Source: an uncultured Desulfobulbus sp.
Lineage (GTDB): Bacteria; Desulfobacterota; Desulfobulbia; Desulfobulbales; Desulfobulbaceae
DNA length: 64,000 bases
Assembly: GCF_963664075.1 (NCBI RefSeq)
Contig: NZ_OY760916.1
Location: 1,552,001 to 1,616,000, forward strand
Direction: 5' to 3'
Positions 3-12,359 of the stretch are shown in pieces (position 1 is the stretch's first letter; each line of letters begins with the position of its first letter). A program made the translations under genes and the position numbers. The notes under the pieces are model-generated. The model saw nothing but the letters and a program-made list of their open reading frames with translations, did not search any database and had not been told where the DNA came from.

Positions 3-1406
3 TTTATCAACACCGTCAAAACAGGTGAAGACACCTATCTGGCCCATATTATGAAAATGGTCGAGGATTCCCTGGCCAACAAGGCGCCGGTGGAGGCAAA
101 GGCGGATGAGCTGGCAGGGAAGTTGATGAAGGTTGGCTTTGCCGCGACGGCCCTGACCCTGCTGCTGACTCTGGACCCCATGCGGGCCCTGACCGTGATG
201 CTGGTCATGAGCTGCCCTTGCGCAACCGTGCTCGCCGCCTCTTCTGCCATTACCGCAGCCCTGGCCAACGCGGCAAAACATTCGATCCTGATCAAGGGCG
301 GGCTCTATCTGGAGACAATGGGCAAAGCGGATATTTACTGCTTTGACAAGACCGGAACCCTGACCATGGATCAGCCGGAGGTGATCGCTGTGTACGGGCG
401 TACGCCTTCCATTGGTGAAGATACGATTCTCGCCATGGCAGCCACTGCCGAGTCGCATAACCACCATCCCATGGCCAAGGCCATCCTTGCTGCCGCCGAG
501 GAGCGTAACCTCAGTCCGGAGCCGCATGCGGTCTGTGATTTCAAAGCCGGCCGCGGGGTGCTCTGTACCGTGGGCGGTGACGCGGTTGTTCTTGTAGGGA
601 ACCGCCAGTTCATGGAGGAGCATGAGGTCGATATCCGCTGGTTTGATACAATGGCGGAGCGCCAGCGCTCTTTGGGGAACACTGTGGTCTACGTTGCCAG
701 AAACGGCAGTATTCAGGGGATGCTGGGAGTGGCCAATCCGGTTCGTCCGGAAGCGGTGCGGGTACTCAATTGTCTGCGCCGCGATGGTGTACAGTCTTTG
801 AGCCTGGTCACCGGTGACAGCCAGGAGATTGCCGAGAGCCTGATGAGCGTGTTTCCCTTTGACGAATGCCGGGCCGAGTTGATGCCCGAAGAAAAGGCCC
901 AGCGGGTTGAGGAATTACGGCAAAACGCTTCTGTGGTCATGGTGGGCGATGGCGTCAACGATGCCCTGGCACTTGCCCGTGCAGATATCGGTGTCGCCAT
1001 GGGAGCAGCCGGGGCCGAGGTCGCACTGGAAGCGGCAGACATCGCGCTTGCGGATTCGAATCTGGAAGGTCTGATGAAGGTGCGTAATCTCAGCCACCAG
1101 ACCATGAACATCATCGACCAGAATCATTTTCTTGCGGTTTCCACGGACTTGATCGGGGCAGCTCTGGCCATGTTTGGTTTTCTCTCACCGGTTCTGGCCG
1201 GCTTGATCCATATTGTCCATACCGGCGGGATTTTGTTGAACTCGGGCAGATTGCTCAACTGGGAGCCCCCCGTGGATCCGATGGATTGCTGTAAACGTTG
1301 CCAACGATCCGACCACACCTGTGGCAGCAGTGATCACCGTCAGGATGCTCTGTTTGTTCTGCCGGAAAGACAGGAACCCCAGCTCAAGCTGATGAAGCGT
1401 AACTGA
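3..1406 (+). CDS. P1B-type heavy-metal-transporting ATPase, 5' end outside window
   Basis: The open frame runs in from the window edge, so the N-terminus and part of the actuator domain are missing. Visible P-type ATPase landmarks are the intramembrane CPC metal site (nt 213-221, context SCPCAT), the phosphorylation motif DKTGTLT (345-365), a nucleotide-domain HHP motif, and the hinge GDGVND (945-962). It should pump a transition metal across the inner membrane or into an internal compartment. The C-terminal tail is Cys/His-rich (CCKRC, then HTCGSSDH), which could bind metal. The last codons and stop lie in an inserted MITE; without the insertion the frame would end PMSTSDD. The downstream HMA-like, hydrophobic and FeoA genes suggest iron or manganese, but the metal is inferred. 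Confidence 0.93.
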   Translation, partial: FINTVKTGEDTYLAHIMKMVEDSLANKAPVEAKADELAGKLMKVGFAATALTLLLTLDPMRALTVMLVMSCPCATVLAASSAITAALANAAKHSILIKGGLYLETMGKADIYCFDKTGTLTMDQPEVIAVYGRTPSIGEDTILAMAATAESHNHHPMAKAILAAAEERNLSPEPHAVCDFKAGRGVLCTVGGDAVVLVGNRQFMEEHEVDIRWFDTMAERQRSLGNTVVYVARNGSIQGMLGVANPVRPEAVRVLNCLRRDGVQSLSLVTGDSQEIAESLMSVFPFDECRAELMPEEKAQRVEELRQNASVVMVGDGVNDALALARADIGVAMGAAGAEVALEAADIALADSNLEGLMKVRNLSHQTMNIIDQNHFLAVSTDLIGAALAMFGFLSPVLAGLIHIVHTGGILLNSGRLLNWEPPVDPMDCCKRCQRSDHTCGSSDHRQDALFVLPERQEPQLKLMKRN

Positions 1407-1555
1407 TCACGGGGTACTTCCCGAAAATACAGCGTATCATCGAAACCGTAAGCGGTTACGGGGGGCCGGATATGCTAGGCATCGTCCTGTGCAGCGTACA
1501 CCTGTACGTAATCAGGGTGATAACACCGCAGATTCGGTGCCCCGTGATCGCTTAC
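1399..1555. mobile_element. 157-bp IS66-type MITE with perfect 8-bp target duplication
   Basis: Terminal inverted repeats of 16 bp match at 14 positions: left GTAACTGATCACGGGG (1399-1414), right the complement of GTAAGCGATCACGGGG (1540-1555). The element is flanked by identical 8-bp repeats GATGAAGC at 1391-1398 and 1556-1563. An 8-bp duplication and GTAAGCG ends are IS66-family hallmarks. It contains no ORF but several hairpins: CCGTAA/TTACGG (1446-1461), ATGC/GCAT (1472-1482), CGTAC/GTACG (1495-1508) and CACCG/CGGTG (1524-1539). It inserted into the last codons of the upstream ATPase, supplies that gene's stop codon, and separates it from the yceI-like gene. Confidence 0.88.
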
Positions 1556-1601
1556 GATGAAGCCCATGAGCACAAGTGATGATTAATACAAGGAGCGTAT
1601 T

Positions 1602-2132
1602 TTGAAGTATGTTTTGACCGACAACAGTCGGGTCAATTTTGTTGCCCATGCCCCCCTGCACCGATTCAAAGGTTGGGCCGAGAAAGGGGTTCAAGGAGGG
1701 CTTGAGATCGATCTTGCGGGTGGGGTGGTGCGTAGCCTCCATGCCGAGGTGGAAACCAGTTGCCTGCAAACACCGGATCAGGAGCGCACCCAGGCCATGC
1801 GTCAATTTTTCAACTTTGCCGATCATCCGTATGCAACCTTTAAGCTTGCCCAGGAAGCCGCTTTGCGTCCTGTAGGCACAGATCGCTGGAACACGCAAAT
1901 GCCGGGTATCCTCTCCTTTGTGGATATTCATCGGCAATTGCCGGTCAAGGGAATGTTGCGAAGGGAAAACGAGCGATTGATCTGGGAGCTGCAATGCAAA
2001 TGGTCGTTCAAGGCGTACGGGCTGAAAGCACCACGCTTATTGATGCTTACTGTTCGGGATATTGTCGATATATCCGCACGCCTTGAATTTATACCCAAGT
2101 ACGATAAGGATCTAGAAAATGTACACCAGTGA
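1602..2132 (+). CDS. YceI-like domain protein
   Basis: A 176-aa protein with the YceI lipocalin-like pattern: an N-terminal strand with NSRVNFVAHAPLHRFKG, then charged and hydrophobic alternation ending in a motif around RLEFIPKYD. YceI-fold proteins bind hydrophobic or isoprenoid ligands, often in the periplasm, but no signal peptide is visible, so this one may be cytoplasmic. The TTG start at 1602 is chosen because AAGGAG (1590-1595) lies at good distance. Before the MITE insertion the preceding ATPase would have stopped at 1584-1586, so these genes formed a tight operon. The downstream gene overlaps by 14 bp. The family is fairly clear; the role in a metal cluster is unknown. Confidence 0.7.
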   Translation: MKYVLTDNSRVNFVAHAPLHRFKGWAEKGVQGGLEIDLAGGVVRSLHAEVETSCLQTPDQERTQAMRQFFNFADHPYATFKLAQEAALRPVGTDRWNTQMPGILSFVDIHRQLPVKGMLRRENERLIWELQCKWSFKAYGLKAPRLLMLTVRDIVDISARLEFIPKYDKDLENVHQ

Positions 2133-2466
2133 ACAGATCGTTGATGGTTTGCTCGATCATATGCTGTATCTGCATGTTGCCCATCACGTCCCCGGTAGGA
2201 TTCGAGTCAAGGCCAGTTGGAGTGGTGCCACCAAGCTGGGTAATGTCAACGAACAGGAGTTGCATACTCTTGTCGCCTCCATTCCAGGCATCCAGGGGTA
2301 TCGCATCAATAAGAAGGCACTTTCCGTTATCATTGAATACGACACCGATACTCTCACTCCCCAGCTTTGGGAAGAGGTGGCCTCTGTGGGCCAATATCCG
2401 GGAAAGCGTGAGACGGTTCGCGGCCAACTCTTAACGCTGCTTGAACACAATGGTGAAAACCGATGA
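2119..2466 (+). CDS. HMA-like (HMA_2-type) small protein
   Basis: A 115-aa protein resembling the HMA_2 domain that accompanies P1B ATPases. It has the signature HHVPGRIRVK (about residues 22-31) followed by a beta-alpha-beta pattern and SIPGIQGYRINKKALSVIIEYD. It lacks the CxxC of classical copper chaperones, so it is more likely an assembly, docking or regulatory partner of the ATPase than a soft-metal chaperone. Its start overlaps the end of the yceI-like gene by 14 bp, implying translational coupling. The same GR-containing pattern is weakly visible at the N-terminus of the ATPase at 4048. Confidence 0.75.
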   Translation: MYTSEQIVDGLLDHMLYLHVAHHVPGRIRVKASWSGATKLGNVNEQELHTLVASIPGIQGYRINKKALSVIIEYDTDTLTPQLWEEVASVGQYPGKRETVRGQLLTLLEHNGENR

Positions 2467-2536
2467 GAGGATGCCCGGCCTTTGAAGGCTTGGTACAGCA
2501 ACGATGTACAATGTGGTTTCAGGAAAGGAGAATACA

Positions 2537-3232
2537 ATGGAACAGGAAGAGCAGGGCAAGCGTGTTCAGGAAAACACCACCGCTCCAGAGTCTTCCCCGG
2601 AAGAACAGGGAAGGGCGGAACCCGGAACAGAACAGGGAGCAGACGAGAAAGCTACCCCCCTGCATGAAGCAGGAAGCGGTGTAACAGGTGCCAATACATC
2701 GGCTGAAGCCCCAGAAGGGGGGGCTCAGCAACCCCATCACCAGTACGCGCAACAGCCCCAGTATGCACAGCAACCACTGCCTCCCGGTTACACCGTTGAT
2801 CCGGTAAGTGGTCAGGTTGTCTATGTCGGGCAGCCCTACCAGCAACCCGTCTATCAGCAGCCGATTCATCCCGGAATCGCGCAGCCCGGTGTCGTCTATG
2901 TACAAAGCGAGACTGCGGAACAGGCTGCGGCTAGGCAGGCGTTGGAACAGCAGCGTTACGGCCAGATTATGCAATCTTTTGAACAGTTCATGCAGGGAGA
3001 AGCTACGGTCTCGGATGTGGTAAAAACGTTGTACACCAATACCGCCCAGTACGACCAGCTCTGGAAAGGGGCCCTGGTCGGTGCGGCGGCCACTTTTCTC
3101 TTAACCAGTAAACCGGCGCGTGAGGCCATGGGCAAGACCTTTAGCAGCGTGTTTCCGGGAATGAAATCAACAAAGAATCAGGCCGCTGAGCAAGCAGCCA
3201 AGGTTGATCCCACCAAAACCGCGAAGGAGTGA
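2537..3232 (+). CDS. Gln/Pro/Tyr-rich protein with hydrophobic C-terminal segment, metal-cluster accessory
   Basis: A 231-aa protein with two parts. The first ~115 residues are low complexity, acidic then rich in Q, P, Y and G (repeats such as QYAQQPQYAQQP), and probably disordered. The rest has a helix and a hydrophobic stretch LWKGALVGAAATFLLTS containing GxxxA-type packing, then a basic tail. An almost identical hydrophobic motif occurs in the protein at 3703. The ATG at 2537 is preferred to upstream 2504 because AAGGAG (2525-2530) precedes it. I do not recognise a named family. A membrane-attached scaffold or adaptor of a metal compartment is a reasonable inference. Confidence 0.72.
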   Translation: MEQEEQGKRVQENTTAPESSPEEQGRAEPGTEQGADEKATPLHEAGSGVTGANTSAEAPEGGAQQPHHQYAQQPQYAQQPLPPGYTVDPVSGQVVYVGQPYQQPVYQQPIHPGIAQPGVVYVQSETAEQAAARQALEQQRYGQIMQSFEQFMQGEATVSDVVKTLYTNTAQYDQLWKGALVGAAATFLLTSKPAREAMGKTFSSVFPGMKSTKNQAAEQAAKVDPTKTAKE

Positions 3233-3237
3233 ATTGT

Positions 3238-3663
3238 ATGGAACAGTATAGTAATGCAGCAAGTGGTATGGCTTCCGGACAGGCAGCGATGGATCAGGGG
3301 ACAGCCATGGCCCAGAACCAGAACAACCCCCTGTACGACGGCACAGGGATCCAGCAGAGCATGGTGCCTGTGAGTACTCTGCCCGCAGCTCCGGTGCAGA
3401 CCTCGCAGATATTGGTAGCTGGTCTTTTTGGTATGGTTGTGGTTGGGACCGGTACCATGGGCGCCAACCTGCACAAGGTCAGCGAGGGGGAAATGAGCAT
3501 GGGAGAAGCGCTTGGCCAGAGTGTCTCCAGGGGAACAGTCGGCGGCATTGCCACGGCTGCTGCCACCGCGGCCTCTTCCTCTCTGACAAGCGGTGGCCTG
3601 ATTGGCCTGGCAGTCACTCTGGCCACGGCCACAGGTGTGAACTATCTTTTGACCAAACCCTGA
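3238..3663 (+). CDS. Small Gly/Ala-rich double-hydrophobic protein
   Basis: A 141-aa protein. The N-terminal ~45 residues are polar and rich in Q, M, A and S. A first hydrophobic segment, ILVAGLFGMVVVGTGTMGA, and a second Gly/Ala/Thr-rich segment near residues 100-135 flank a charged loop. Repeated GxxxG and small-residue spacing suggests tight helix packing in a membrane. The ATG at 3238 is chosen over an in-frame GTG at 3229 because AAGGAG (3224-3229) is correctly spaced for it. It lies 5 bp after the previous gene. No family is recognised. Gly-rich hydrophobic proteins of this kind occur in organelle-type clusters (magnetosome, ferrosome); that link is inference. Confidence 0.7.
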   Translation: MEQYSNAASGMASGQAAMDQGTAMAQNQNNPLYDGTGIQQSMVPVSTLPAAPVQTSQILVAGLFGMVVVGTGTMGANLHKVSEGEMSMGEALGQSVSRGTVGGIATAAATAASSSLTSGGLIGLAVTLATATGVNYLLTKP

Positions 3664-3702
3664 CATAACAACCTAGATTTTATAAAATAAAGGAGATAAT
3701 TC

Positions 3703-3993
3703 ATGGACCAGAATAATCCCAACCAGGTGTACTATCAACCCGTTGCTCCCCAGGTATATCCCACAGCCCCGGCGACCAGTTTTCTTGGGCTTGACCTGCA
3801 GAATAATCAGTTCTGGAAGGGCGCGCTCATTGGTGCAGCCGTCACCCTGCTGGTCACGAATGAGAGCGTGCAAAAAGGCGTGGTCAAAGCCATTGCCAAG
3901 GTTTCTGCCGCTGCCCAGGGGGGGATCGAAGAGATGAAGGAAAAATTTGAGGACGCCCGCGCAGAGGCCATCGCCGAAAGCGAGAGCGAATAA
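3703..3993 (+). CDS. YtxH-like small membrane-anchored protein
   Basis: A 96-aa protein. A Pro/Tyr/Gln-rich head (about 30 residues) precedes QFWKGALIGAAVTLLV, a single hydrophobic helix with GxxxA spacing, and then an amphipathic, charged coiled tail ending in acidic SESESE. The layout (glycine-rich TM, then long charged helix) is that of YtxH/DUF5132-like proteins. The WKGAL(I/V)GAA motif repeats the one in the 2537 gene, so the two are probably paralogous partners. A Shine-Dalgarno AAAGGAGAT precedes the ATG. A strong terminator follows 7 bp after the stop. Confidence 0.72.
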   Translation: MDQNNPNQVYYQPVAPQVYPTAPATSFLGLDLQNNQFWKGALIGAAVTLLVTNESVQKGVVKAIAKVSAAAQGGIEEMKEKFEDARAEAIAESESE

Positions 3994-4000
3994 GACTATC

Positions 4001-4036
4001 GCCCCGGAGTCGTCTCAGGACCTCCGGGGCTTTTTT
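4001..4036 (+). terminator. Rho-independent terminator or attenuator ahead of the second ATPase
   Basis: A 9-bp GC-rich stem GCCCCGGAG (4001-4009) / CTCCGGGGC (4022-4030) with a 12-nt loop is followed by six T residues (4031-4036). The next gene's ATG is only 11 nt further on with no clear ribosome site. The signal therefore either ends the small-protein operon or attenuates expression of the ATPase. Confidence 0.85.
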
Positions 4037-4047
4037 GTGTCCACAGT

Positions 4048-6249
4048 ATGCAACAGCCAATCCAACACAGAATCCGCCACCGGACCAGTTATCGTACCCG
4101 TATCCAGATACCGGCCCTGAAGGGGCAGCCTGGGCTCTGTCAGGAGCTGCAGGGTTCTCTTCGTCGGTTTGCAGGGGTGGATGCAAGCGAGGTGCGTGCA
4201 CGCTCCGGTTCGGTCATTCTGCTCCATGCAACAAAGTGGGTGAGCCTGTCGCAGGTTCTTGGCCATATTGCCTCCCTGGTGCAACAGTCCGGATCAAGAC
4301 GAGTCGCCACCCGCATCGACTGCGGAGCTCTGGCCGCTCCCAGGCACGACCGGGAGTCCAGGGGGCATGTTCCTGGTCCTCTGCTTTTGCTCTCAGGGCT
4401 CTACCTGCTGTATCTCTATGCCAAACGCATGGTGAGCACCCTGAGCCCGACCCTTGTTTCAGCCTCCCGTCTGCTCACTCTGCCCGCCCTGGTTACCTTG
4501 GCAATCTCCCTGCCTGTCCAACGTCAGGCCCTGGAAAATCTGCGCCGCACCGGCAAGGCGGATATGGGCCTCATCTCCACGGGGATTCTTTATTTCTCCT
4601 TGCTTAGCGGGAATACGCTGGCCGCATTCACCGTCTTTTGGCTCTTTAATCTCTCCAGTTGGCTTGAAGATCGAATCCGGATTCAGACTCGGCAGGCAGT
4701 CCGGGAGATGCTCTCCAATGATTGCCGCCAGGCCTGGCTCCTTCGAGACGGGGTGGAGATAGAGGTGGATGCGGCTGATCTGCGAAGAGGTGATGTGGTG
4801 GTTTTGCGTAAGGGAAACGTCATCCCCGCCGATGGTGTGGTCGTCTCCGGCCAGGCGCTGATTGATGAGGCGGCGCTCACCGGAGAGGCGGAGCCGGTTG
4901 CTCGCTCAGTGCGGGAAGCGGTACTCGCCGGGACGGTGATGGTGGATGGCTTTGTCCAGGTACGCGTGGAGCAGGCCGGTGAGGACACACGCCTGGCAGC
5001 GATTATTCGTTTGATCGAACAGGCCGAGCGGGATCCCGGCTCCTTGCAGCTCTCCACCCGCCGATTTTCCCAGACCATGGTGCCGGTCTCTCTGGGGCTG
5101 GCTGCCACAGCATTTTTTTTAACCGGAAGCCTGATGCAGGCCATGGCCGTGCTCATTATCACCTGTCCCTGCGCTTTGCGGTTATCCACTTCGGTGGCGG
5201 TCAGCGCAGCCATGAGCACCGCAGCCCGCAACGGTATTCTGATCAAAGGCGGGCGGTATGTGGAAATTGCCAGCCAGGTTGATGTGGTAGTGGTCGACAA
5301 AACCGGCACACTCACAGATCGTCTGGCAGAGGTGACCCACATCACCCTCTTTGATCGCAGATACCGGGAAGACACGGTTATACGCCTTGCCGCCAGTGCC
5401 CAGCAGGCGTGGGCGCATCCCTTGAGCCGGGCCCTTGTCGAGAAGGCGAAAGAGCACCAGCTCACCCTGCTTCCGGTTACGGATTCCGAACTGGTTGTGG
5501 GGCAGGGGGTGCGCGCCCGGATAGGGGCGGATACCCTGGTACTCGGGCATGCAGGTTTTCTTGAGGCCAACGATATACAGCTTGCTGCTTCCCTGGAGGA
5601 GCTGTGCCGCTCAGAGCACCAGCAGATGCTCGTTGCCTTGAATGGCCGTCTGATAGCTGCCCTGGGGATGCTACACCGGCAGCGACCGGGGACGGCTCCA
5701 GCACTTGTTCGGCTCCGCAGCCTGGGCGTCCGGCACCTGGTTCTCCTGACCGGGGACAGCCGGTTGGGCCTGGATCCAGAGCTTGAGCAGGCCTTTGATA
5801 CGGTGCTCACCGCTCAAACACCTGAAGATAAGGCAGCCTGGATCAGCACTTGGAAGCGTGAGCACCCGCAGGATGTGGTGGCCATGGTCGGTGATGGGAT
5901 TAATGATACACCCGCATTCGCGGCCGCCGATCTCAGCCTGGCCATTGGCCAGGGAGGGGCAGATGTCTCCGTTGAGTATGCAGACATTGTCCTGAAGCGG
6001 GGTGGGCTGGACCAGACAGCGGATGCCATTGATTTAGGCAGGCGCACACGGAAGACCATCCACCAGAGCTATGCCCTTGCTCTGGGAGCGAATGGGGCTA
6101 TTCTGGCCCTGACAACACTTGGGGCGCTCTCGCCTGTCGGCGGTGCTCTGCTGCACAACCTGACCACTGTGGCCGCTGTGGCCAACGCCTCGTCTTTAGC
6201 TCGCAACTCCGGGCAACGCGCTTTGGATGTGGCGGGGCTTAATCCGTAA
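4048..6249 (+). CDS. P1B-type heavy-metal-transporting ATPase, complete
   Basis: A 733-aa metal pump. Residues ~1-90 form a degenerate HMA-like domain without CxxC. Membrane segments start near 110, the actuator TGEA is at 278-281, CPC at 373-375 (TCPCALRLSTS), the phosphorylated Asp at 417 (DKTGTLT), the HP pair at 457-458 and GDGIND at 615-620. All catalytic motifs are intact. Only one membrane pair follows the hinge, as usual for P1B pumps. No good Shine-Dalgarno precedes ATG 4048, which lies directly behind a terminator, so the true start or expression mode is uncertain. A decayed partial duplicate lies at 9009-9870. FeoA follows at +58 bp. Iron or a similar divalent metal is the likely cargo by context. 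Confidence 0.93.
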   Translation: MQQPIQHRIRHRTSYRTRIQIPALKGQPGLCQELQGSLRRFAGVDASEVRARSGSVILLHATKWVSLSQVLGHIASLVQQSGSRRVATRIDCGALAAPRHDRESRGHVPGPLLLLSGLYLLYLYAKRMVSTLSPTLVSASRLLTLPALVTLAISLPVQRQALENLRRTGKADMGLISTGILYFSLLSGNTLAAFTVFWLFNLSSWLEDRIRIQTRQAVREMLSNDCRQAWLLRDGVEIEVDAADLRRGDVVVLRKGNVIPADGVVVSGQALIDEAALTGEAEPVARSVREAVLAGTVMVDGFVQVRVEQAGEDTRLAAIIRLIEQAERDPGSLQLSTRRFSQTMVPVSLGLAATAFFLTGSLMQAMAVLIITCPCALRLSTSVAVSAAMSTAARNGILIKGGRYVEIASQVDVVVVDKTGTLTDRLAEVTHITLFDRRYREDTVIRLAASAQQAWAHPLSRALVEKAKEHQLTLLPVTDSELVVGQGVRARIGADTLVLGHAGFLEANDIQLAASLEELCRSEHQQMLVALNGRLIAALGMLHRQRPGTAPALVRLRSLGVRHLVLLTGDSRLGLDPELEQAFDTVLTAQTPEDKAAWISTWKREHPQDVVAMVGDGINDTPAFAAADLSLAIGQGGADVSVEYADIVLKRGGLDQTADAIDLGRRTRKTIHQSYALALGANGAILALTTLGALSPVGGALLHNLTTVAAVANASSLARNSGQRALDVAGLNP

Positions 6250-6307
6250 GCAGGGTACTGAACAACCTATCTCAAAATTTTTTTAGCTTACTTTTTTTGG
6301 AGAAACA

Positions 6308-6577
6308 ATGCGTCCTTATCACTGCTGTACCGAACAGCATTCACAGCGTCCCCTTTTCCCCCTTGCCATGTCCGGCGAGGGGGAAAGAGTCACGCTGGTA
6401 CTGATTCCCAAGGGAATCAAGATTCATGAGCGGTTGCTCAGTATGGGCATCGCAATGGAGGACACGGTCACCGTGGTGCAGAAACAACCCGGTGGTGCAG
6501 TGGTGATCTCTAAAGATGGGAGCCGCTATGCTTTGGGTGGCGGCATGGCAATGAAGATTCTGGTGGTCAAGGCCTGA
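6308..6577 (+). CDS. feoA: FeoA-domain protein
   Basis: An 89-aa protein with the SH3-like FeoA fold pattern: PLAMSGEGERVTLVLI, then a helix HERLLSMGI, then DTVTVVQKQPGGAVVISKDGSRYALGGGMAMKILV. FeoA normally interacts with the Fe(II) permease FeoB. No feoB is present here, so this copy probably serves the neighbouring ATPase cluster, or is a stand-alone paralog. GGAG (6299-6302) precedes the ATG. Its presence is the main local hint that the cluster deals with iron. Confidence 0.85.
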   Translation: MRPYHCCTEQHSQRPLFPLAMSGEGERVTLVLIPKGIKIHERLLSMGIAMEDTVTVVQKQPGGAVVISKDGSRYALGGGMAMKILVVKA

Positions 6578-7925: not shown

Positions 7926-8840
7926 CTAAGCTGCTTTTTGTTCCTCACGGAAAACGAAGTCGGTTTGGCTTTTGTCAACTGACATCATGTACGCCACCAG
8001 CCTTCTGGCCACGGCAAGCGTTGCCCTGTTTCGGTTGCCTTTGCCCAGTTCCCGTTGATGTACGGCTGCGAGTTGAGGATTCCAACGCGGTGCCAGTTTC
8101 GCGGCCTCGACCAAGATGGTCTGGAGGTTTTTGTTGCGTTTCTTGGAAATCGGCCCTCGCTGTTCCTTGCCGGCGGATTCCCGTTGTGCACTGCACAGGC
8201 CACAATAACTGATTGCTTGGCGAATAGAGCTGAATCGTGACGGAGGCCCGACCTCAAGTACCCAGGTCAGCGCAGTAACCTCGCCAACTCCAGGAATAGT
8301 CATCAATCGACCAACCCTTTCCTGGATTAAAGGATTTGTGCGCAAGGCCTGAAGTAGCCGTTTTTGAAAAGTTTGGAACATCTCAAATCCGCTACGGCTT
8401 AGCATGAGCAACTCCTTAACCGAAGATGGGACCTCATCAAGTCGATCCAATAACTCATGAAAATATTTTTTGCCTCGAAGGCGCTTTTTATTGTAGCCCG
8501 CTCCAACCTCCATCAGTAGACCGGACATTTTGTTGTGCATTCTGACCGCTGTTCGTAACAGGTGGTTGCGATATCGCAGAACCCGCCGCAGTTCCCTGAT
8601 TTCTTGCGGAAGCATGGTGCATTCCGGTAAGAGGTTGACCCGCAGGAGATCGGCAATTCTTTCCGCATCGGCCCGATCGTTTTTTTTCTTGGCAGCGGTG
8701 ATAGCTCTGAGCATCTCAGGATGGGCCACTTTTAACTCAACGGCATAAGGTGCAAGAAAATCGTAAACCCAGCCAGTGAACATCGTGGCCTCCATCGCAC
8801 CAATCCAAGGGCCAGGTAAGCCTTTTGCCCATGTTTTCAA
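7926..8840 (-). pseudogene. IS110-family transposase, N-terminally truncated
   Basis: A 304-aa open frame carries most of an IS110 DEDD transposase: the Glu region GAMEATMFTGWVYDFL, the Asp pair NDRADAERIADLL, a long helical linker, and the C-terminal Transposase_20 part with MTIPGVGEVTALTWVLEVG and SYCGLCSAQRESAGKEQRG. Related proteins carry about 45 more N-terminal residues with the first catalytic Asp. Here an in-frame TAG lies 14 codons upstream of the TTG at 8840 and no other frame supplies the missing part, so the element is broken at about 8840-8885. IS110 elements lack classical inverted repeats, so outer ends cannot be set. Confidence 0.85.
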
Positions 8841-9008: not shown

Positions 9009-9870
9009 TCACCTGTCCCTGCGCTTTGCGGTTATCCACTTCGGTGGCGGTCAGCGCAGCCATGAGCACCGCAGCCCGCAACGGTATTCTGATCAAAGGC
9101 GGGCGGTATGTGGAAATTGCCGGCCAGGTTGATGTGGTTGTGGTCGATAAAACCGGCACACTCACAGATCGTCTGGCAGAGGTGACCCACATCACCCTCT
9201 TTGATTGCAGATACCGGGAAGACACGGTTATACGCCTTGCCGCCAGTGCCCAGCAGGCGTGGGCGCATCCCTTGAGCCGGGCCCTTGTCGAGAAGGCGAA
9301 AGAGCACCAGCTCACCCTGCTTCCGGTTACGGATTCCGAACTGGTTGTGGGGCAGGGGGTGCGCGCCCGGATATGGGCGGATGCCCTGGTGCTCGGGTAT
9401 GCAGGTTTTCTTGAGGCCAACGATATACAGCTTGCCTCTTCCTCGCTGGAGGTGTGCCTTTCAGAGCGCCAGCAGATGCTTGTTGCCTTGAATGGCCGTA
9501 TGATAGCTGCCCTGGGGATGCTTCACCGGCAGCGACCGGGGACAGCCGGCTGGGCCTGGATCCAGAGCTTGAGCAGGCCTTTGATACGGTGCTCACCGCT
9601 CAAATACCTGAAGATAAGACAGCCTGGATCAGCACTTGGAAGCGTGAGCACCCGCAGGATGTGGTGGCTATGGTCGGTGATGGGATTAATGATACACCCG
9701 CATTCGCGGCCGCCGATCTCAGCCTGGCCATTGGCCAAGGGGGGGTAGATTTCTCCGTTGAGTATGCAGATATTGTCCTGAAGCGGGGTGGGCTGGACCA
9801 GACAGCGGATGCCATTGATTTAGGCAGGCGCACACGGAAGACCATCCACCAGAGCTATGCCCTTGCTCTG
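9009..9870 (+). pseudogene. Partial, decayed duplicate of the 4048-6249 P1B ATPase
   Basis: This stretch matches 5159-6084 of the intact ATPase with a few substitutions, from the CPC motif through DKTGTLT and GDGIND to just after the hinge. It lacks the first ~370 residues and the C-terminal membrane pair. A 64-bp piece is missing exactly between two 10-bp repeats (gaccggggac, at 5684 and 5748 in the intact gene), which frameshifts the copy. The 3' break coincides with the GTAAGCGG end of an IS66 remnant. It cannot make a working pump. Confidence 0.95.
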
Positions 9871-10667
9871 TAAGCGGTTATTTAACAGCCTTCATAGCGT
9901 CATGGATTACAATATCCTCAAGGCTGAAATTCATTGGCAGCAACGCCTCATACTCCTTTTGCGTTTCAGCAAAGGGGATTTTCTCAAAGAGATAACGCAG
10001 GTATCGGTAAGGCTCCAGGCCGTTGGCTTTTGCTGTCTCGATCAGGCTGTAGAGATCGGCACTCGCCTTCGCTCCTGCGGGCGTTCCAGCGAACAGCCAG
10101 TTCTTCCTGCCGACAACAAATGGTCGAATAGCATTCTCGGCACTGTTGTTGTCTGGTGTCATTTCCGGATGTTCCAGGTAGATAGACTACCAGTCTGTCC
10201 CACTGATTGAGCGTGTAGCGTACAGCTGTGCCCAGCAGACTTTTTGGTACAACCTGGCTCGCTTTCTTCTGGAGCCACAAGAGAAATTCATCAACAAGTG
10301 GCTTTGCCTGCTTGTGGCGCACTGCGAGCAATTGCTCTGGCGTTAACTTTTTCCGTTGTGCCTCAGACTCAATACGATAGAGCTTAGCGATATACTTCAA
10401 CGCTACATGCGCGCTGCCGCTTTTGCCTTTACTTTGCCCTTTGGCAGCTTCGTCAAATTTGCGGCGAGCATGGGCCAGGCAGCCAGAATGGATGATCTTC
10501 GAGTGTGAATCAAGAAAATCATACCCGGCATACCCATCGGTCTGCACTATACCGGAGTGGGAGCATCCGATACTTATGGCATCATTTAACCCGTCGGATC
10601 CTCTTCGGTCGTGATGCTTGCAGCTGCTTTGCGTTTTGCTCATACTCCTCGAAAAAAGAATCGAATT
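9870..10667 (-). mobile_element. IS66-family remnant with frameshifted TnpC
   Basis: The left end is an IS66 inverted repeat, GTAAGCGG at 9870-9877, joined directly to the ATPase duplicate. The minus strand encodes the C-terminal half of an IS66 TnpC: GIVQTDGYAGYDFLDSH, CLAHARRKFDEA, then PDNNSAENAIRPFVVGRKNWLFAG in a second frame (stop at 9878). The frame changes near 10176-10184, where four extra bases separate LVVYL from EHPEMTPDNN. Recognisable homology ends near 10580. The N-terminal half, tnpA and tnpB are missing, probably lost when the neighbouring IS66 arrived. Confidence 0.85.
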
Positions 10668-12359
10668 GTAACTACTCCCCCCTATTCTTCGGCATCAGGC
10701 AGAGTTCCTGCCAGTGCCAACTGGATAGCGACAAGAGGATTGATCCCCTGGCTTGCCATGGTCTGCAGGTAGCTTGAAATCCTACAGTAAGCCTGGGCAT
10801 ATTGTTTACGTCGAAAACAACCGGATATTTTCTGTTTTACCTTAGCCATGCGAAGATCCCTTTCCGCTCTGTTGTTGGTGAACGGTACATGTGGTTCTTT
10901 GGCAAAAAGCAAGACTGCCGCCTCATGCTTTTGTAATCGCTCCCAAAGATTGTGCGCATCGGATTTGGCTATCCTGCCGCGCTTCCCTTGTGGTTTCGGA
11001 GGGATCTTGGGCAACTCCTTGCTGCCACGCGTAAGGATATTACGGTAGCGCTTCTGCAGGTTGGCATACTCCCGTTCGGTAAGACATTTTTCCGGACGTT
11101 GAGCCACCGTACGACACGTTTGCTGGAGCACCGCTTTTAGATTGCGGGCCCACCGGTATTGGTTTGAGTCAACGACAAACGTCAACTCTCGTAAAAGGTG
11201 CGAGCCGCAAAGTCCGTGACCGCAATGGTCGTAGGATAAATATGATGCCCAGCAATCATGGATGATCACCCCGCCATACCGAGGGATGATATTCAATCCT
11301 TCGATTGCCTCCTTGCCCCGCTTTCGATGCAGTACTTTCAGGGTTGTTTCGCCGGAAGAATAGACGTGAATCCAGTGATTCTTCCCTTCAACCCGAAACG
11401 AGGTTTCATCCACATGCAGGGATGGAGCCTGCAGCAGCCTATCAATAGCTCTGGATTCCCATGCTTCGAGTGATTGGTACAAGCGCAAAACAAATTTGAG
11501 CAGGCTGGCCTCGGAGATTACGCTACCGATCATGGCTGCTATCTGTTTTTGAACCCGGTTTAAAGCGACCATCTGGCTGATAACCAAATGAATGGCAAAC
11601 GCTTTAAGCCCATTGCCGTACTGCAGCTTACCCGGCATATCGTCAGGGAAACGCCCTTTGACCGTGGCCTCACAATTAGGACATTGCTTTATTTCTGCGT
11701 CAATGTGCTCGACAACTTTTTCAAAAACGATGTCGATTTTTGTCCGACGTTCATGCCCCTGGCATGCAACGTTTTCCAGCACCATTCCGCAGGTATCACA
11801 CACCTCGACCTGAGCAGTGGTGACTGATTCTTTGACGCGTGTATTACCAACACGCCCATTGACGTGTTTTCCCTTGCCGGTAGTGGTGCAGTGCTTGGTC
11901 GCAGTTTCGTCTTTCTCGGTTTGCGAAGAAGGAATGCTCGAGTTTTTGTTTCCCTTGCGCGTTGTCTTCTCAAGAAAGATAGAGAGTATCAACTCGACGA
12001 CAACCAACAGACTGTTGAACAGGACCCGTATCTCAGAGGAGACTTTACCGTCGGAACAAAGCTGTTCAAATTCCTGTTTGAGGAGATCGACTTCTTCGCG
12101 AACCCTTATTTTATTTACTGTTCCCATGGGTTTACTATACCATGGCTTTTTTCGACCTCCTGTGCGCCCATGAGTTGAACGATTGAACGCTATCGCATCT
12201 GTTTGCTATCGGAACGCAATATTGGAACGATTTAGAGACGACCAAGCGCGTTGATGGGCATTTTTGTTGACATTCCTGGCTATTGGGAAAAATTTTAGTA
12301 AAAACCTGTCAAGTTATTTATTTGGCTTTGAGCTTTTTTTAGAGGGTGTGAGTAGTTAC
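10668..12359 (-). mobile_element. IS66-family insertion sequence, stand-alone transposase type
   Basis: Imperfect terminal repeats begin GTAACTACTC at both ends (10668 inward and, complementary, 12359 inward). One transposase gene fills the element with no tnpA or tnpB, as in the ISBst12 subgroup. The flanking 8-mers (10660-10667 and 12360-12367) differ, so no target duplication survives. That is consistent with a deletion on one side, which also removed the rest of the IS66 remnant and the 3' end of the ATPase copy. Confidence 0.8.
10682..12127 (-). CDS. IS66-family transposase
   Basis: A 481-aa protein with an N-terminal coiled coil (about 10-55), a basic low-complexity linker, and a zinc-finger region with CDTC (110-113) and CPNC (149-152). 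The DDE catalytic core has Asp240 (HVDETSF), Asp291 (IIHDCWASYL) and Glu422 (NNRAERDLRM). The length is normal and all catalytic residues are present, so the enzyme may be active. The gene occupies nearly the whole element at 10668-12359. Confidence 0.93.
   Translation of the reverse strand: MGTVNKIRVREEVDLLKQEFEQLCSDGKVSSEIRVLFNSLLVVVELILSIFLEKTTRKGNKNSSIPSSQTEKDETATKHCTTTGKGKHVNGRVGNTRVKESVTTAQVEVCDTCGMVLENVACQGHERRTKIDIVFEKVVEHIDAEIKQCPNCEATVKGRFPDDMPGKLQYGNGLKAFAIHLVISQMVALNRVQKQIAAMIGSVISEASLLKFVLRLYQSLEAWESRAIDRLLQAPSLHVDETSFRVEGKNHWIHVYSSGETTLKVLHRKRGKEAIEGLNIIPRYGGVIIHDCWASYLSYDHCGHGLCGSHLLRELTFVVDSNQYRWARNLKAVLQQTCRTVAQRPEKCLTEREYANLQKRYRNILTRGSKELPKIPPKPQGKRGRIAKSDAHNLWERLQKHEAAVLLFAKEPHVPFTNNRAERDLRMAKVKQKISGCFRRKQYAQAYCRISSYLQTMASQGINPLVAIQLALAGTLPDAEE

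Follow-up and report, generated by a model that had tools for sequence, protein, structure and literature searches.

Does a row of genes for P1B-type ATPases and small hydrophobic proteins in an uncultured Desulfobulbus sp. encode a ferrosome, and which of its ATPases would then be the iron pump? Ferrosomes are membrane sacs that store iron in bacteria; they were described recently, and the cooperation of their membrane proteins is little known. Validated fez operons are those of R. palustris CGA009, S. putrefaciens and D. magneticus. The window analyzed here is a stretch of 64,000 nucleotides, positions 1552001-1616000 of a 4.78-Mb single-contig genome, for which an earlier note had proposed a ferrosome-like cluster with two P1B ATPases. 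Judged from its genes, and with a probability of about 0.8, the window carries the 3' half of a gene cluster of the ferrosome (fez) type for the storage of iron.

The start of the window cuts the cluster, which begins about 5.5 kb upstream, and the window carries its right part. Upstream genes are given in the numbering of locus L011, where the window position is the L011 position minus 12000. The 5' part of L011 includes feoB and feoA on the minus strand, genes for a small secreted protein and a DUF4198 protein, an iron-repressor-type regulator (L011 6501-6998, domains PF01325 and PF02742) and a small hydrophobic membrane protein (L011 6976-7338). These are followed by the P1B ATPase ATP1 (L011 7347-9470), a FeoA-domain protein (L011 9473-10240), two small minus-strand proteins, and ATP2, a P1B ATPase of 815 aa (L011 10959-13406, which is window -1041 to 1406) whose C-terminal part occupies positions 3..1406 of the window on the plus strand. 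The remaining genes are all on the plus strand of the window: a YceI-domain protein (1602..2132; PF04264, E 3.7e-9), the stand-alone HMA_2 protein HMA2 (2119..2466; PF19991, E 5.5e-7), WK1 (2504..3232), a Gly/Ala-rich protein with two hydrophobic stretches, here called MamC-like (3229..3663), the YtxH-like WK2 (3703..3993), the full P1B ATPase ATP3 (4048..6249), and a FeoA-domain protein (6308..6577; PF04023, E 4.8e-14) that closes the cluster. The genes and motifs listed in the earlier note are real and lie where it placed them, and their domains were confirmed.

Two further features of the locus were observed. Of the two small membrane proteins encoded on the minus strand before ATP2 and after the ATP1-FeoA block (L011 10250-10758), at least one is present in each relative locus that covers this stretch, L013 included; the profile of the larger one matched none of the 80 named FezB loci (best 80 of 527 relatives) and gave a match in L142. 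Directly upstream of feoB/feoA, in L012 and L011 1-1429, an apparent zinc-uptake set (ABC ATPase, permease and His-rich binding protein) and a Fur-family regulator were named by eye from the translations.

A PF00122 search of the genome returned six P-type ATPases, three of them within 11 kb and each with an HMA_2 match, which for ATP1 and ATP3 is significant but under the Pfam cut-off. Both P1B ATPases reported in the window are present, but the two-ATPase reading of the cluster was dropped, since a third one, ATP1, lies upstream. The TM4 motif of ATP1 is DYSC, and in a tree of 61 ATPases it is the sister, with a support of 98/94, of 20 fez-type operon ATPases that include those of Rhodopseudomonas; 19 of these 20 carry DYSC and the remaining one DYAC. 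We take this DYSC clade to be FezB (P1B-6), an assignment anchored in the Rhodopseudomonas operon and not in a named FezB sequence. In the same tree ATP2 and ATP3 are separate clades outside FezB, sisters of each other at 89/77; a quick tree disagrees and places ATP2 nearer to FezB and ATP3 nearer to the CPC pumps, at 82. From the tree of 61 ATPases, ATP2 and ATP3 were ruled out as FezB, and, judged by its sequence, the FezB-type ATPase of the cluster is ATP1, upstream of the window. What stands of the earlier assignment is the ferrosome-like character, by homology and synteny; what does not stand is that the ATPases seen then are of the FezB type, since both are CPC ATPases placed outside that clade and one of them, ATP2, is without TGE.

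Searched against plasmids, ATP1 pointed to operons of Azospirillum, Cereibacter, Arcobacter and Vibrio, in which the TM4 motif of the ATPase is DYSC, or DYAC in Cereibacter. R. palustris CGA009 makes ferrosomes from six fez genes, RPA2333-2338 (PMC12016538). A DYSC-type ATPase was found in five of 16 genomes of the genus Rhodopseudomonas; three have FezC-like, HMA2, MamC-like, WK2 and FezB genes in this order with room for one gene more, and in the version found in a fourth, G272, the head of WK2 is Pro-rich. Compared through these genus-mates of CGA009, the six-gene operon and the cluster have in common a FezB-type ATPase with DYSC and HMA_2, and the same order of HMA2, MamC-like, WK2/YtxH-like and FezB genes. 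In contrast to that operon, the cluster lacks FezC, has its FezB-type gene split off upstream, and includes WK1, long Q/P/Y heads and two more ATPases with CPC. The plasmid operons of Vibrio sp. THAF190c (L033) and Cereibacter azotoformans (L031) encode, like the cluster, a WK1-like protein (Pro-rich head, FWKGAM) at the same place, a MamC-like protein, WK2 and FezB, as well as an HMA_2 protein, located before WK1 in Vibrio and after FezB in Cereibacter; unlike the cluster, they have a single ATPase. The fez-type operon of Arcobacter (L032) shares HMA2, MamC-like, WK2 and FezB genes, and differs by having one ATPase and a DUF2202 protein between HMA2 and the small proteins.

The small proteins are as first described: HMA2, the HMA-like protein without CxxC, contains 0 Cys, and the WKGAL(I/V)GAA motif behind Q/P/Y-rich heads was found as the hydrophobic LWKGALVGAA in WK1 and as FWKGALIGAA in WK2, which has an acidic tail. 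In the long head of WK1, the 186 aa that precede the motif include 31 Q, 16 P and 11 Y, and within a set of 17 proteins WK1 and WK2 match each other with a BLASTP E of 3.9e-7. Named genomes scanned for the TM4 motif region yielded 527 relatives, and the best 80 were kept as the 80 named FezB loci. In these, window-trained profiles were applied: WK2 was matched in 79/80, adjoining the start of FezB in 78/80, and a stand-alone HMA2 in 70/80, or 74/80 if FezC-like and ATPase frames are admitted, the ten loci without a stand-alone HMA2 being mostly small contigs. The two profiles had 0 matches in 8139 shuffled ORFs. Given these matches in fez-type loci and the position of ATP1 as sister of the fez-type ATPases, the ferrosome reading is well supported; the companion small membrane and HMA proteins are also found in operon order. 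WK1 was rejected as a general fez gene, as its profile weakly matched 23 of the 80 loci (best 80 of 527), in all 23 on the WK2 gene.

A search for FezC, reported as a DUF4405-like heme protein of ferrosomes (PMC11334425), gave none in the cluster. The two-histidine part of FezC is in this genome a separate 96-aa protein encoded far from the cluster (genome 2313388-2313678, E 2.7e-10), which is 60% identical over 63 aa to the product of the gene after FezB in the Arcobacter operon (L032). Both FezC-like histidines are invariant in ten aligned members, and the profile of this part had one or more matches in all ten genomes searched, among them four that are positive or likely controls or carriers of other fez sets. 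The mini-protein gene adjoins the cluster in G002 and G021, is about 4 kb off in G014 and about 7 kb off in G085, and is on another contig in G006 and G033. Since C. difficile is described with FezA and FezB (PMC12574912) and FezC-like genes are present in 59 of the 80 named loci (best 80 of 527), FezC may not be obligatory.

ATP2 carries SCPCATVLAAS in TM4 and keeps DKTGT, and has NGR instead of TGE and NDALAL in place of NDAPAL. The TGE substitution is at window -75, and the loss was invisible in the earlier note because this site is 75 bases outside the window. ATP2 and its relatives form one clade in the quick tree (26 rows, SH-aLRT 100), and the TGE glutamate is found in 0/26 of them, the residue being Arg in 22, Cys in two, Gln in one and Val in one; it is present in 137/137 other P-type ATPase frames (128 by pattern, nine by eye), a non-random sample in which FezB relatives predominate. 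A loose TGE pattern tried as control also matched another TGE-like stretch, calling 20/26 ATP2 sequences positive, and aligned and narrower counts were used instead. Among the 26 relatives, DKTGT is kept in 25 and is DKTGA in one, NDALAL replaces NDAPAL in 21, and the proline of CPC-x6-P is absent in all; the copy studied here also has CNSC and CKRC motifs near its ends. TGE is called omnipresent and responsible for dephosphorylation (PMC10973460, PMC8880997). With its phosphorylation site retained and the TGE glutamate lost, ATP2 is read as a slow or arrested pump, most likely a metal- or phosphorylation-gated partner of FezB and not a transporter.

One alternative is limited to ATP2 and would still fit a ferrosome: ATP2 could be a working second pump in which another residue dephosphorylates the enzyme. 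In that case two or three pumps of the ferrosome would be active, and they might differ in metal or in direction (loading, release). The DKTG, HP and GDGxND motifs and CPC are all retained, the strong conservation (60-79% identity to seven relatives) indicates selection for something, and the Arg in 22/26 could also mean a selected new role. However, the occurrence of four different residues (R, C, Q, V) across 26/26 looks like loss and not like one new catalytic residue, and the description of TGE as omnipresent and responsible for dephosphorylation (PMC10973460) also argues against it; we regard a working ATP2 as unlikely, but worth keeping in mind. Eighteen of the 26 relatives are in fez-type surroundings, and for the other eight none were seen, some of them being on short contigs. 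Four relatives without fez neighbours (L172, L175, L176 and L178) are near P-type ATPases of ~1000 aa, and small frames with weak HMA_2-type similarity are also found nearby.

ATP3 has TCPCALRLSTS in TM4, an intact TGE and only a weak HMA_2 match; it forms a clade of its own and occurs in only part of the relatives, with no ATP3 beside WK2 in L019 and L028. A decayed-looking, gapped and partial second copy of ATP3 was observed at window 9009-9546 (95.9% identity over 538 bp) and 9534-9876 (96.8% identity over 343 bp), flanked by transposases of the IS110 type (7926-8840, minus strand) and the IS66 type (10682-12127, minus strand). Actinobacterial P1B ATPases encoded beside DUF1490, which we take to be CtpC-like, resemble ATP2 and ATP3 in having CPC in TM4 and in full-length similarity; they differ by keeping TGE and the proline after CPC, and ATP2 and ATP3 form their own clades. 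Both could move another metal. The pattern that, according to the earlier note, would speak against ferrosomes was that of ATPases in copper, zinc or CtpC-type clades together with small proteins without relatives in fez clusters; its first half is matched only loosely, since ATP2 and ATP3 are outside FezB but in clades of their own, and its second half fails, as relatives of WK2 and HMA2 stand in fez-type operons.

The CPC motifs bear on a second alternative, in which the locus would be a general heavy-metal efflux island, with three ATPases that export Zn, Cd, Mn or Co through the cytoplasmic membrane and small proteins that act as accessory metal sponges. ATP2 and ATP3 pass the cut-off of the cadmium-family model TIGR01512, a result that does not discriminate, because ATP1 and the Azospirillum operon ATPase pass it too. 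The best full-length plasmid relatives of ATP2 and ATP3 are Rhodococcus ATPases, one of them beside a DUF1490 gene, and the nearest NCBIfam model of the regulator is MntR, under its cut-off. In contrast, ATP1 belongs to the fez-type clade, WK2 and HMA2 are those of fez-type operons, FeoA-domain proteins and a regulator of the iron-repressor family are found around the cluster, and none of the cluster-region proteins searched against Pfam was of the CDF, RND, ArsR or MerR type; an efflux island is improbable in our judgement, and the ferrosome-type cluster is preferred. When the intergenic regions were scanned for palindromes, no shared site was found, and the one repressor-like inverted repeat was near feoA; this imperfect repeat (TAGGCTT...AAGCCTA) lies in the interval from which feoA and the gene of the small secreted protein diverge (L011 4757-4936), and we take it to resemble the sites of DtxR-type iron repressors.

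The window-type cluster was found in five of 23 genomes of the genus (G000, G002, G006, G014 and G021). Two other members, G018 (L021) and G013 (L029), have a three-gene fez-type set, formed by a FezC-like (HMA2-plus-two-histidine) protein, a small YtxH-like protein and a DYSC ATPase, and the window-type cluster was not seen there. The conservation of gene neighbourhood that the earlier note had proposed to check is evident for the core, whose order recurs in relatives and is therefore not due to chance; some relatives lack YceI, ATP3 or the last FeoA. Of the closer relatives, L013, L014, L016, L023 and L025 have the YceI gene between ATP2 and HMA2, and L019, L026 and L028 were found without it; its profile had no match in the loci of the phylum. 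The closing FeoA-domain protein also occurs in L013 and L016. We read ATP3 and YceI as additions of particular lineages. An operon of eight genes, all on one strand, is found in seven loci (L145, L146, L147, L148, L150, L152 and L177), which represent five genera of three other families; its order is ATP2, HMA2, WK1, MamC-like, WK2, mini-protein, ATP1/FezB and FeoA-domain protein, the HMA2 match of L146 being inside a longer frame, and parts of this operon are found in L142, L143 and L144. If the 8-gene operon is the older state, its genes were rearranged in the lineage of the window, where ATP3, YceI and the regulator were added. ATP2 is present (E 1e-140 or better) in 18/395 genomes and 14/245 genera of the phylum. 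It was not found in 398 genomes of the Rhodopseudomonas phylum, a weak negative, as scoring was limited to the two best candidates of each genome and the sample had no positive control.

The MamC-like protein was detected in 10/257 genomes of the class and, with a profile, in 12/395 of the phylum; in the same 395 genomes, ATP2 is present in 10/12 with the MamC-like protein and in 8/383 without it (Fisher p 1e-13, which ignores kinship). The window protein matches the NCBIfam MamC model (NF038051) with E 2.6e-5 and 24.5 bits, the cut-off being 100 bits. In an enlarged MamC-like set of 29 members, to which the upstream small protein and proteins of the operons belong, the model matches 11 (best E 6.4e-10), and it has a match in this genome and none in 14 control genomes. 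A MamC profile of two sequences from magnetotactic genomes was run against 9445 frames and 400 shuffled MamC sequences; MamC itself ranked highest, followed by the operon proteins of Arcobacter (E 2e-4) and Vibrio (E 1e-3). In the reverse search, the window-type profile reached MamC only at E 0.31 and the alphaproteobacterial one at E 0.2, and one of 400 shuffled MamC sequences scored 0.62. Profile-profile comparison of the window-type set with MamC gave P 6e-5 with a probability of only 65%, and that of the upstream small protein with MamC no match; the window profile matched the fourth gene of the alphaproteobacterial operons weakly (best E 0.0017). With the MamC-like set, a solved-structure search gave no credible match and a Pfam search led to nothing, and a term search found no mention of MamC-like or Mms13-like proteins or MamC homologues in the papers covered. 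The protein resembles MamC (Mms13) of magnetosomes in its two hydrophobic Gly/Ala stretches with a loop between them and in profile similarity, and differs by a score far under the family cut-off and by another gene neighbourhood; low-complexity composition could contribute to the similarity. The Gly-rich protein appears weakly related to magnetosome MamC. That the locus would encode a magnetosome-like mineral organelle instead of a ferrosome is very improbable in spite of the 11 matches in the set of 29 (best E 6.4e-10) and their absence from the control genomes, given the 24.5 bits against a cut-off of 100, the E of 0.31 in the reverse search, and the fez-type remainder of the cluster.

In a ferrosome encoded by these genes, WK1, WK2 and the MamC-like protein would shape and pack the membrane vesicle, into which ATP1 would pump Fe(II), and the cysteine-free HMA2 domains may recruit pumps or hand over ferrous iron. 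The FezC-type mini-protein would bind heme and handle the redox state of iron, ATP2, with its phosphorylation site kept and the TGE glutamate lost, may serve as a gated partner of FezB, and the DtxR-type regulator and the FeoA proteins would tie the cluster to iron supply. A bolder proposal, which we hold tentatively and at clearly less than even odds, is that ferrosomes of this phylum have a built-in arrested P1B ATPase, a transport ATPase turned scaffold, where ATP2 would be phosphorylated but not dephosphorylated and would act as a structural or iron-sensing switch docked on FezB via the shared HMA_2 domains, and that the MamC-like protein is an ancestral membrane component shared by ferrosomes and magnetosomes.

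Relative to the fez operons compared here, the multi-ATPase make-up and the TGE-less partner ATPase are new. A warning is that, by general family models, ATP2 passes for an ordinary heavy-metal pump. Should the weak relation to MamC be borne out, it would open an evolutionary link between ferrosomes and magnetosomes to testing, and the conserved 8-gene operon with its TGE-less partner ATPase provides a testable handle on whether such a protein is a scaffold, a sensor or a gate.
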